Below, one piece after another: positions 30,487 to 63,480 of a stretch of DNA of 64,000 bases (the first letter of the stretch is position 1; every line of letters begins with the position of its first letter). The notes below the pieces were generated by a model. The model was not told where the DNA came from, made no database searches, and saw nothing but the letters and a program-made list of their open reading frames with translations. The translations under genes were made by a program, and so were the position numbers. This DNA is from Xestospongia bergquistia. Lineage: Eukaryota > Porifera > Demospongiae > Haplosclerida > Petrosiidae. Location: assembly GCA_963965975.1 (NCBI GenBank), contig OZ014421.1, forward strand, positions 6,501,413 to 6,565,412, read 5' to 3'.

Positions 30487-41757
<11,271 letters not shown>

Positions 41758-57518: not shown

Positions 57519-60500
57519 ATGTCAATTCCATTGCCTCCCTTTCCCTCTTCCCAAAATGAAATGGAGGAGTTCCTCTTATCTCCTCAAAATCTCTCAATTC
57601 ATAATTTTCGCAGCAGCCAAAAGTGGGTACATCTATATAGTATATATCAGTAGTACAACTGCATACATCTCAATGCAGTAATGCAGTGTATTAACCAGCT
57701 GTAATAAATAGCAATATTAAAATATACTGTTTATTATGGAATATTTGAATGTGTACCAGAACCTCCACTTATGATGTTTTTATAGGTTCTGGCCGAGGGT
57801 ACCTAAGCCAGAGTCATTGTTTTTTGTTCCTCTTTGTCCCCCCCACACACAAATTGCTGTGGAACGAGACCCAAAGACTGGAAAATTATCAGGCTATAAA
57901 GAAGTATAGATACCATAAATGTACTATAATGCTATGTTGTATGCTGTACAGATTGAGGTCAATGAAGTGGGACTTACAGCTAAAAACTCTACCTCTCTTC
58001 AAAGGGCACCAGGTCCACTTGATCAATCCATTAAAGGTGACTCCACCCATTTCCCTTTTTGGCCAGGTACATCTGCACACTCATAACACATGCAAAATGA
58101 GTATTTGGGAACGAGCCTAATATATAAATGTTTTAATAATGCAGGTGGTTTGGATGAGCCAGAGGCAGCAGTTAAAAATATACTTCAATCTACAGATGAT
58201 AACATTGATTTTAGCAAAAGTTAGTTGAAGATACAGCTGCTTGTTGGTTGATGACTGAACTGGTATTAGCTAAAATATTTCCTTTTTAATTAGATCTGTT
58301 GTCTGTACCTCCTGGATTCAGCGAGGGAATGACCTTTCCTGATGAGTCCCATTGTCAAATAGCTGGTAGTTTTAAATCTACAATATGTGTATCTTTATGA
58401 TTTCCTTAGACTCCACTGCAGCTTTAACAATCTCACTCCAAGACTTACTCTCTGGTTCTGGAATGGGACTAGGATTGGAATGGACTTCAGACCAAGACAA
58501 AGACACACCCAACATATCAGACTCCAATCCAGTACTAATATAATAATTATATTTCCATACAAATAACTTAACTATTAATATATTTTAGGTCAAAGATAGT
58601 GACAGTGCTATTGATGGACTAGTAGAAGATATGTCCCCTCCAGGGGATCAAAATTCTGATGTGTTTCAGAACCCTGTTGGTAAAAAGACATGGGCGATTA
58701 AAGTTGATTTACAAGAGAATGTAGATGATTTCCATCAGAGGATACCATATATGGCACATTCAGTCAGTGTTATATGTCTAACTGTCTTCATATCTCATTG
58801 TCTTCTTTAGTGGCCATTTGAGTTAGACATTTTTCAGAAACAAGCCATATTGAGATTAGAATCACAACAATGTGTCTTTGTTGCTGCTCACACCTCAGCA
58901 GGAAAGACGGTAGTAGCAGAGTATGCTATAGCTCTTTCATTTTCTCACATGACTAAGTTAGTCAGTCACATGTTTATCACATGCTAGTAATGTTTTCTTG
59001 TATAGAACTATTTATACATCACCCATTAAGGCTCTTTCAAACCAGAAGTTTAGAGATTTTCGATTGACTTTTGGGGAAGACAATATAGGATTGGTGACTG
59101 GAGATGTTCAGATACGCAAAGAGGCACCTTGTCTCATTATGACTACAGAGATATTACGGTAGGAGAAAGAGAGAGGGAAAGAGATAGAACCTTGTTTTTT
59201 TGCTAGTTCAATGTTGTATCATGGATCTGATATGATACGTGATGTTGAGTGGGTTATCTTTGATGAAGTTCACTATATCAATGATTCTGAGGTAATAATC
59301 ATCCATTGATCTTATCTATTGGTCCAGCTGTCTCTTTTGTCCATTTTTTCATTCATCCATTTGACAATCTGTTCATCAATTCAACTATTAAATTATCTCT
59401 CTCCATTTATTCATTCATCTATCCATTTAGAGAGGGGTTGTATGGGAGGAAGTCCTCATTATGTTACCAGAGCATGTCAATCTAATCCTATTATCAGCTA
59501 CAGTACCTAATGCAATGGAGTTTGCTGATTGGGTGGGGTAAGTAGTTTAGTCATGTGACATTCATGCAATTTACATGTGATTAATATTGTCCACAGGCGG
59601 ACAAAACAAAAGAACATATATGTTATCAGTACCAGTAAGAGACCAGTACCATTGCAGCACTATTTGTATACTGGTAACAGTAAACAAACACAAGACCAAT
59701 TGTTCATGATTGTAGATGAGCACAGAAAGTTTATTTTGAAAGGGTAAATTTGCTGTTCATTTAGTTTAAGAATTAGAGTCTCATGTTTTCATAAATTGAT
59801 ACTTGATACCTTCATATTTAATACATACTGAGTATTTATCAGTATTTGTAGATACTCAATATCAATAAATATTTACTGACTACATATATACTGATAATTT
59901 CATTCCTATACTACTGATATGTTGATAATTTCATTTCTTTACTACTGATATTTTGATAATTCCATTCCTATACTACTGATGTACTAATAATTCCATTCCT
60001 ATACTACTGATATACTGATAATTTCATTCCTATACTACAGATATCATCAGGCTTTAGATGCTAAGAAAGAAAGAGAAGAGAAACAAGGAGCTGCTGCTAA
60101 GTTTGGTCCTAAAGGAAGATCTCAACTAGGACCAGCCCAAGACAAAAATATTTGGCTTTCTCTTATTTACATGTTACAAAAGAAGGACAAACTTCCATTA
60201 GTAGCATTCACTTTATCTCGTGCTCGTTGTGATCAAAATGCTGATTCTCTAACAAACTTAGATTTAACTGACGGTGATGAAAAACATAAAATAAATTCTT
60301 TCTTTCAAAAATCAATATCGATATTAAAAGGTTCTGATAAAGAACTACCTCAGGTACTTACAAATCTAGCAGTCATTTTTGATTATAATTACACGTACTT
60401 AATTTGATGTTTATAATTGCTGTTATCTCTTGGTTTTAATTTTAGGTGACTTGGATGAAAGATCTATTAAAACGTGGTATTGCTGTACATCATAGTGGTA

Positions 60501-63480
60501 TATTACCAATTATTAAAGAGGTATGTGGTATATTACCAATTATTAAAGAGGTATGTGGTATATTACCAATTATTAAAGAGGTATGTGGTATATTACCAAT
60601 TATTAAAGAGGTATGTGGTATATTACCAATTATTAAAGAGGTATGAGATATATTAATAAAAAGGTAGTTAGTATATATTAACACACTATGACTATGAGTT
60701 AATTACAGCTGGTTAGCTTAAACTTGATCTCATTTTGTTAGGTTGTGGAAATGTTATTTGGCCAAGGTTTAGTAAAGGTATGTAAAAAATTGTAATATAA
60801 TTTGAATTGTAAGGTTAATAATAATAATAGAATGAGTATTTTGACTTCAAATTTTGAATGACTTCAAAATTTTTGCTATGATTTATAATTACAAGAGCCC
60901 ATAGTTTCACTAAAGAGGGGTGGAGTCTTGTTATTTAGTATTTTATATTTTAATTATCAGTATTGATTTTAAAATTACTTTTAGTTATTATTTGCTACGG
61001 AAACATTTGCAATGGGTGTCAATATGCCGGCTAGAACAGTGGCCTTTGATTCTATGAGAAAACACGATGGAGTACGAATGAGAGATCTCTATACAGGTCA
61101 GTGACCACATGATCATCACATGATTAGTGGATAACGATGTTATAGGAGAGTATATACAAATGGCAGGAAGAGCCGGAAGAAGAGGCAAAGACTCCACAGG
61201 GACTGTTATTATTCTCTGCAAAGCTGACATTCCAGAGTCCAGTGAACTCCACAAGATGATACTGGTCAGTTTAGTTTGATGACTCTGTTGCTATGGTAAC
61301 ATTTGTGTTTTAGGGTATTCCAACAACATTGGTTTCACAGTTTAGATTGACGTACACAATGTTACTAAACATTATGAGACTGCCAACATTGAGGTAAATA
61401 AAACAATAACTCCTTTTAATGTAAACATTTTTAATAAATTTCTGTTAGAGTTGAAGATGTTATGAAGAAAAGTTTTGCCGAATTAGATTCTATAAAATAC
61501 CAAGATGACCGTCAAGAAAAACTTGAAGCATTGCAACAGACAATGTCATCATTAGATGGATTGTATTGTCCTGTATGTATCACTGATATCGATCAGTATT
61601 ATCAGTCTTGTGATCAGTTACAGAAATTAAAGAAGAAAATGCAGGTATGAATGGATGGATGGACAGATAAATTGATCTATACTTTTTGTGATATAGGAGT
61701 TGCTCTTAGGAAATGTACACTTTCAAAAAGCTCTTGCTCCTGGTCATGTGATAGTCATGTGGACAAATAAATACAAGTATGGTCTAGGAATTATTTTACA
61801 AGAAAATGCAAAAAAGAACAATGACCACACCTACATAGTACTCATGTTATGTAACCGTGATGATGAGTCTGAAAATGGTGCAACTTCATTGGTCAATTTT
61901 GATCCTGATCATGTGATCCCTTTTGAAGCCATGACGAATATGTTTAAACCCGAAGGAGAGGTCGGGCACATTGTTGCTGAGGTCAAAGGTCACATAATAA
62001 TTGCTGTAACCAAGAATGTAATATCAGTGGATACTAAAAGAATAATTAATGATTATAAGGAAAGGCAACTCCCCCGATTCAAGTCAGTCATGTGACTCTC
62101 ATGTGATAGTGGTATTATATCACATGATATTTAATTCATTAGGGATAGATCTCCTATTCCAGACACAGTTAAGACAGTTGAGATGTTAAGACAATTGTCT
62201 GATGTACCTATAAAGGATCTGGGACTATTAGATCCAATAGCAACCTTGAAGATGAACAGTTTGGATTATGTGGAGATGAAGAGTGATAAGGAGAGAATTG
62301 AGGGGACCCTGTTGTGTTATACATGTATTAAATGTCCGCAATTCTTGGAACATGTAAGAGTGCTATATTTGAATGGATAAGTCTTGAATAGTGATAATGT
62401 AGATTGACAGTTATAATTGTATTTATTGTAGTTTGAAAAGGCACGTACTAAAGCTGTCCTTCAAGACCAGCTGTCTGTACTGAGATACAAGTTGTCAGAG
62501 AACAGTCTTCAGTTGTTACCAGAATATTACCAGAAACTAGATGTAAGATCATTTGTTGTTAAAAGTAATCTTCAATTTATTTCATGTTGACAGGTTTTGA
62601 AACATCTTAAATATATCAGTGAAGAAAATGGCACAGTAAAATTGAAAGGTCGTGTAGCATGTGAGATTCATACTCAGGAGATAATGATCACTGAACTATT
62701 GTTTCGAAACGCTCTGGAGGGATTTGAACCGGCTGAAGTGGCAGCTTTACTATCCAGTATGGTATTTCAACAGGTATAGTATTAGACGATGACTGTCATA
62801 TTTTCAATTTTCTTTATATTTTAGAGTAAATGTAGTGAACCAAACTATACTGAAAGATTAACTGAGGTAAGTCTCAAACTAGTGAGGCAGTCTCAGACCT
62901 GTTCTGAGTTCATGTAGTATAAGTATGAAATTATGAAATCTATACTAACAGGGCAAACAAATGATATTGAGTATTGCTGAAGAGATAGCTCGTGTAGAAA
63001 TGTCATATCGATTAGAAACGTCAGTAGAAGACTATCAGAAAGAATTCAAGTTTGGATTAGTGGAAGTTGTTTATGAATGGGCCAAAGGACAGGTAAAGGT
63101 ATTAGGAATGAGACTTGTATACATATCAGTATGGGAATGAGACCTATAACTTGTGAGTATGGGAATGAAACTTGACTCTTAAATTGATATTTTAGATTAT
63201 AAGCAACTTTTAATTTTAGGAATTTGTCAAAATAATTGAGTTGACTGATGTATTAGAAGGTATGTTGTCTAACTACAAGCTACATCATGTGATTATGACA
63301 TGTTATTCATATATCATAGGTGTGATAGTCAAGTGTATTCAACGTCTTGATGAACTTTGCCGCGATATTGGCAAAGCTGCCCGACTAGTAGGCGACCCAC
63401 GATTGGCTAGCCTCATGCAAGAAGTCTCAACATTGATCAGAAGAGATATAGTATTTGCTGCTAGTCTTTACACAATATAA
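57519..63480 (+). CDS. SKIC2: SKI2 RNA helicase of the cytoplasmic exosome (SKIC2/SKIV2L)
   Basis: A multi-exon Ski2-like DExH helicase of very roughly 1,200 aa. First exons: 57519-57622, 57786-57903 and 57952-58066. Core motifs in order are [15 protein letters not shown] (Walker A, exon beginning near 58811), [31 protein letters not shown] (DEVH box), [44 protein letters not shown] and [15 protein letters not shown]-terminal Ski2 helical domain follows and ends ...[10 protein letters not shown] at 63480. SKI2 feeds mRNA to the cytoplasmic RNA exosome, with SKI3 and SKI8. The exon ending near 60520 is followed by a tandem repeat that reiterates its splice donor (see findings). Start chosen by similarity and reading frame. 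Confidence 0.94.
59840..60040 (+). repeat. ~30-bp tandem repeat in SKI2 intron
   Basis: Units such as TACTACTGATATGTTGATAA and TTTCATTCCTA repeat about five times with variation before the exon at about 60042. Confidence 0.8.
60491..60650 (+). repeat. 30-bp exon-end repeat with five splice donors
   Basis: Five head-to-tail copies of a 30-bp unit that encodes GILPIIKE and then contains GAG|GTATGT. The donors would cut before 60521, 60551, 60581, 60611 and 60641 (the last is GTATGAGA). Copies are identical across the coding part, so the duplication is recent or homogenised. Confidence 0.95.

Follow-up and report, generated by a model that had tools for sequence, protein, structure and literature searches.

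Five tandem copies of a splice donor at an exon end of the SKI2 helicase gene in the sponge Xestospongia bergquistia

We analysed a stretch of 64,000 nucleotides, referred to here as the window, from the sponge Xestospongia bergquistia (GenBank assembly GCA_963965975.1, 146,460,797 bases in 21 contigs; contig OZ014421.1, positions 6,501,413 to 6,565,412 of the forward strand), in which the end of an exon of a SKI2 helicase gene is repeated in tandem together with its splice donor. The coding part of this gene (SKI2, SKIC2) occupies 57519..63480 of the plus strand. A hand-built model of it comprises 27 exons coding for 1206 residues, with GT-AG introns, matching phases and one terminal stop, and the gene is complete. 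Human SKI2W gave the best alignment to the predicted protein (1178.7 bits over residues 5-1205), while yeast SKI2 scored 784.7 bits and DOB1/MTR4 lower, at about 600 bits. Homology over the full length, above that to other Ski2-like helicases, identifies the predicted product as SKI2, as an earlier note made from the letters alone had named it. Exon 14, as spliced from its first donor, lies at 60446..60520 and exon 15 at 60742..60777, both placed by the gene model and the SKI2 alignment. Between them the model gives intron 14 at 60521..60741, 221 nt from the first donor and 101 nt from the fifth. Intron 13, upstream of exon 14, measures 92 nt.

Splice sites were scored with matrices trained on 573 introns that a self-trained gene finder predicted in the surrounding 264 kb; the median length of these introns was 68 nt. 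The gene finder had no RNA input, and its second parameter set stands behind all counts given here, the first, which merged genes into four, having been dropped. It matched 22 of the 27 hand-built SKI2 exons exactly, although SKI2 was its own seed and the agreement is therefore not an independent test. By these matrices the acceptor of intron 14, TCTCATTTTGTTAG, scored 5.91 (69.6th percentile).

The array at the end of exon 14 consists of five identical 30-bp units, GTGGTATATTACCAATTATTAAAGAGGTAT, at 60495..60644 on the plus strand, as found by Tandem Repeats Finder (TRF). The TRF row extends over 60495-60655 with 5.4 copies, 98% matches and a score of 308; the remainder at 60645..60655 (GAGATATATTA against GTGGTATATTA) is either an incomplete copy that has diverged or a similarity that was there beforehand. 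Read in the 60495 register, a unit holds 26 exonic and 4 intronic bases, and in the register of the donor it equally holds 24 and 6. The array sequence was found at one place in the 146-Mb assembly.

Each unit carries a complete donor (written here with a slash at the exon end). Donor 1, GAG/GTATGTGG (GAG/GTATGT), at 60521..60522, yields the conserved protein. Donors 2, 3 and 4, all GAG/GTATGT, lie at 60551..60552, 60581..60582 and 60611..60612 and would add 10, 20 and 30 residues, respectively, if used; donor 5, GAG/GTATGAGA (GAG/GTATGA), at 60641..60642, would add 40 and deviates from the others at position +6. Donors 1-4 scored 7.21 (92.8th percentile); the lowest score, 6.41 (84.8th percentile), was that of donor 5. 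All five share phase 0, and the four lengthened joins of exon 14 to exon 15 stay open throughout. On intron retention, the exon-14 frame reads on through four copies of a ten-residue repeat and a V to a TGA at 60644..60646. Thus the claims of the earlier note that exon end and donor recur five times at 30-bp spacing, in one frame with a stop just past the last, and that each later donor would insert ten residues, were confirmed.

Could the array be an artefact of sequencing or assembly, the true locus having one copy? A slippage artefact would indeed look like five identical copies. However, an array of 150 bp is short for long reads, arrays with units of 30-60 bp are common in this assembly, and similar arrays in the genes of AMPK alpha and SPT5, described below, have copies that differ among themselves. 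We consider an artefact very improbable.

We then asked how unusual such an array is at a splice junction. On the 264 kb, 85 TRF arrays with a period of at least 10 were retained after merging overlaps. Predicted junctions were crossed by 5 of the 85 array rows, two of which overlap at the SKI2 array site itself, whereas random displacement of the arrays would give 26.9 (95% range 19-35). Arrays thus as a rule avoid junctions, and the SKI2 array is an exception; its place at a splice junction is not due to chance. None of the 88 predicted introns with a donor scoring at least 6.4 held a second donor of that strength, whereas SKI2 intron 14, taken from donor 1, holds four. When every additional donor within 1 nat of the one used was counted, 102 of the 573 introns had at least one and 13 had at least four, so that the strength of the competing donors is more unusual in intron 14 than their number. 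An enrichment of donor triplets across the genome was not supported, as every pattern count fell far below that of a backward control: 8+5 matches (8 places) against 596+729 for three AGGTRWGT with gaps of 4-34, 129+96 against 3218+3401 for the laxer AGGTAWRW, and 14+8 against 399+513 for triplets with gaps of 35-65. The backward control probably picks up GGAT-type repeats.

The join from donor 1 is colinear with human SKI2W and yeast SKI2, with no insertion at the site where exons 14 and 15 meet, and as the sole join to match them in this way it favours use of donor 1. The site lies between two stretches of SKI2, HHSG and FATETF, which we take to be named helicase motifs, and presumably falls in a helix. 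A Helicase_C scan covering the forms with no insert, +10 and +40 residues (cut-off 23.5 bits) gave 31.8 bits over residues 71-158 for the first; the match fell to 26.0 bits starting at residue 107 with ten extra residues and to 25.3 bits starting at residue 139 with forty. This shortening of the match likewise favours donor 1.

We therefore read the array as a young minisatellite that is mostly spliced out, donor 1 being predominantly used, and give this a probability of roughly 0.6. The earlier note had left both an intronic repeat and a ladder of isoforms open; the evidence leans to the former because donor 1 alone gives the conserved helicase, the insert shortens the Helicase_C match, and the comparable array in SPT5 is productive from its first donor only. 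A ladder, in which several of the five donors are used appreciably and SKI2 forms with 0, 10, 20, 30 or 40 extra residues arise, as noise or with a role, is a possibility that we hold to be doubtful but far from negligible. In its favour, all five donors are strong and in phase and all joins stay open; AMPK alpha provides a second in-frame ladder; and in the sponge Amphimedon queenslandica, whose genome is similarly compact, 12.7% of splicing events involve alternative donors (PMC4432959). With a size that works out at about 145 Mb, tightly packed genes and small introns, the Amphimedon genome as described there is much like the present assembly in size, gene density and intron size. Beyond the shortened domain match, the ladder reading of SKI2 has against it the human and yeast alignments with their lack of an insertion, the finding that regular splicing in amphioxus is undisturbed by similar arrays (PMC3087553), and the ladder in SPT5, which cannot be useful.

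Several observations weigh against predominant use of donor 1. Donors 1-4 have the same sequence from at least -26 to +8, so that nothing local marks donor 1. The +40 form is still above the Helicase_C cut-off, and the gene finder prolongs exon 14 to donor 5. Published proximity rules state that the 5' splice site nearest the acceptor is preferred in short introns and the upstream donor in exons between long introns, with a changeover at 200-250 nt (PMC9225289). With intron 13 at 92 nt and intron 14 at 221-101 nt, the short-intron rule predicts donors 4-5, and it favours the later donors of a ladder as well. The intron of SPT5 is 717 nt long, where the rule favours the upstream donor, and SPT5 may hence be an unfair guide. 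RNA structure was considered as a mark of one donor and dropped, since the fold of 60446-60745 was no better than that of shuffled sequences (z -1.01; 33 of 200 shuffles as good). A U1 snRNA 5' end with ACTTACCTG was found at three of four U1 loci and not at the fourth; U1 cannot separate donors 1-4, which are identical.

A further proposal is that donor 60611 or 60641 is the main one, so that normal SKI2 would carry 30-40 extra residues. The proximity rule, the choice of the gene finder and the resulting intron of 101-131 nt, nearer to the predicted median, all speak for it. On the other hand, every SKI2 molecule would then have its conserved stretch interrupted, and donor 5 is the weakest of the array; we regard this proposal as improbable.

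Two donor patterns were run against the genome. The AGGTRWGT pattern, which requires three strong donors spaced by 12-42 bp, matched 13 times, at 8 places, of which 7 were checked for coding context: SKI2 and SPT5 qualified, the other five lacked a convincing coding exon end, and the eighth place is, by the text of the match, a GT-rich repeat. The AGGTAWRW pattern gave 225 matches, and among the matches listed five further places were picked by eye. One of these, AMPK alpha, qualified, three (L041, L042 and L044) were judged by eye unlikely to be coding, and the fifth is possible. The latter, L043 (G000 C1:16576651-16577150), is a 33-bp array of GAG/GTAAAT adjoining a possible, open exon-like stretch, with no Pfam match and a weak coding score (-1.5). 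The arrays reported here are thus found cases and not a rate, the patterns spanning some donors and spacings and the AGGTAWRW candidates being picked by eye.

The array in SPT5 (identified by phmmer at 157.6 bits) consists of 41-bp units on the donor side, at L026:1475-1638 on the plus strand (G000 C1 near 22771951). The exon ends at L026:1502 with ...SAWDPSVSNTPAR/GTAAGT; intact AG/GTAAGT donors stand at L026:1503, 1544 and 1585, and the fourth copy, reading AG/AA, has lost its donor. Donors 2 and 3 run into TAA at once, so donor 1 alone is productive. By analogy, this suggests that the organism may tolerate such arrays by using the first donor. In AMPK alpha (AMPK_alpha_AID 42.9 bits, cut-off 27), a donor-side array of 33-bp units lies in frame on the minus strand (L039/L040; G000 C1:10049251-10050450), as established by reading of the units. 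Four of its five copies retain an intact donor, scoring 5.76; the exon ends ...HLAVAYELVQDNR/GTATAT, the next exon reads ...VLLSQTESLDKPSEDVYATSPPSSSF, and the intron measures from 347 down to 215 nt. Here, too, the conserved join is made from donor 1.

Frame-keeping ladders, with five donors at 30-bp spacing in SKI2 and four intact donors at 33-bp spacing in AMPK alpha, could together be a recurrent, tolerated source of isoforms graded in length, although we think this unlikely. If it were true, there would be helicase forms longer by multiples of 10 residues and AMPK alpha kinase forms longer by multiples of 11, and the isoform mix would depend on the number of repeats and the length of the intron and would thus vary between individuals.

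Boundary-crossing arrays of this kind are known. A study of amphioxus describes "mirages", minisatellite-like tandem duplications that cross exon/intron boundaries in the Adh3 gene and the globin genes BflGb6 and BflGb9, which affect both kinds of boundary, have units of 10 to about 160 bp, and differ in length between haplotypes, with regular splicing reported (PMC3087553). By this anatomical definition the SKI2 array, known here from the DNA of one assembly, is a donor-side mirage: as in amphioxus, where some cases (BflGb9) are donor-side, its units span an exon/intron boundary in an ordinary gene. Many amphioxus copies hold AG/GT signals, and in SKI2 all five donors are intact. In contrast to the amphioxus cases as far as they are described there, the SKI2 array combines a 30-bp unit, phase 0, freedom from stops, and five identical copies with intact donors. 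The array therefore belongs to a known class; what is unusual is that it is short and free of stops, lies in phase 0 and has all its copies intact, and that its genome has two more in conserved genes. No sponge case of a mirage-type array was found among the papers listed by a literature search whose coverage of subscription journals was limited. Human internal tandem repeats, with units of about 30 bp and 4 copies on average, are likewise minisatellite units, some of them at an exon-intron boundary, that alter exon or intron length; they were found by comparing paralogues with transcripts, whereas the SKI2 array is known at the level of DNA (PMC2812944).

Two further systems were compared. 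In human UBC-type dual-specific arrays, each AG/GT serves as both donor and acceptor and units are removed or kept singly (PMC10809524). The SKI2 array shares with them an AGGT at each unit end, a unit that is a multiple of 3, and a kept frame. It differs in lying at one exon end rather than in the coding body, in having no good internal acceptor by score, and in that its intron does not end within the array. As acceptors, the AGs of the array scored -2.19, below all 573 predicted acceptors, and an AG two bases upstream scored 1.07 (0.7th percentile), while the 221-nt intron 14 runs past the array to an ordinary acceptor (60741). A dual-specific array was accordingly rejected as scarcely credible. 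Intron gain by tandem duplication also relies on a boundary-crossing duplication that copies splice signals. In SKI2, by contrast, no new intron is made and an existing one is lengthened at its 5' end; since the array does not include the acceptor of intron 14 and holds no acceptor-like site of usual strength, this candidate was set aside.

The reading of the SKI2 array as a spliced-out minisatellite implies the following course of events. A 30-bp stretch over the junction of exon 14 with intron 14 would have been duplicated in tandem, probably when imperfectly homologous sequences on its two sides misaligned. What follows the array is similar to the beginning of the unit, with 9 matches in the first 13 bases and 12 in 18. 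Unequal exchange at this homology may have produced the first duplication and turned GTATGA into GTATGT in the copies, which would strengthen the copied donors and remove the in-frame stop. The identity of all five copies, the exon copy included, suggests that they expanded recently or were homogenised. With splicing mainly from donor 1, the extra copies would be removed at the 5' end of intron 14, which would have grown from 101 to 221 nt while the SKI2 protein stayed normal, presumably a neutral change. As the unit length is divisible by 3 and the unit is in phase 0 and free of stops, a slip to a later donor would add 10 to 40 residues in frame and cause no frameshift, and a degree of leakage may be tolerated.

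Intron 12 of SKI2 carries an array of its own, with a 31-bp unit at 59879-60044 (86% matches). It is more diverged and runs up to the acceptor; in place of the CTACAG found there, each of the four copies upstream has CTACTG. The frame-breaking 31-bp array thus has one usable AG, whereas the frame-keeping 30-bp array has five donors. This contrast is what tolerance by frame would predict, though one case of each proves nothing and SPT5 (41 bp, three intact donors) speaks against it.

Other repeats with splice-like signals were observed in the window and elsewhere. A 60-bp minisatellite at 36573-37624 has GGTAAGT in its consensus, and, to judge by that consensus, another four arrays to the right of the window, one of them inverted, are built from the same unit; it looks like a dispersed minisatellite family. 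A 58-bp array of 28.8 copies at L015:8280-9959 has a consensus with GTAAGT and CTACAG, and adjoining it at L015:7705-8102 is a 33-bp array of 12.1 copies whose minus strand is partly open with an EMLKLVLDALI-like repeat. Near a contig end (G000 C1:28164510-28164724, minus strand), the text of one of the 22 matches to triplets with gaps of 35-65, all of them read as text, contains a 69-bp tandem unit that resembles an intron of 45 nt (GTAAGT...TATAG) together with an exon of 24 nt. The left flank (L002-L011) holds a run of minus-strand predicted genes of recurring sizes; three that were compared are partly alike, and one of two scanned contained caspase and CAP-Gly domains.

Five near-identical donors, 30 bp apart and facing one acceptor, constitute a natural experiment on whether position decides donor choice and in which direction, and the 221-101 nt span of intron 14 adjoins the changeover in the proximity rules. 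The in-frame array of AMPK alpha and the out-of-frame array of SPT5 provide matched tests within one animal. For annotators the locus carries a warning: an ab initio gene finder carried exon 14 on to donor 5, which, should donor 1 be the true one, would give a conserved helicase 40 residues too many. Amphioxus is the source named for such arrays in the literature searched, and the three arrays in conserved genes here suggest that they are not a peculiarity of lancelets.

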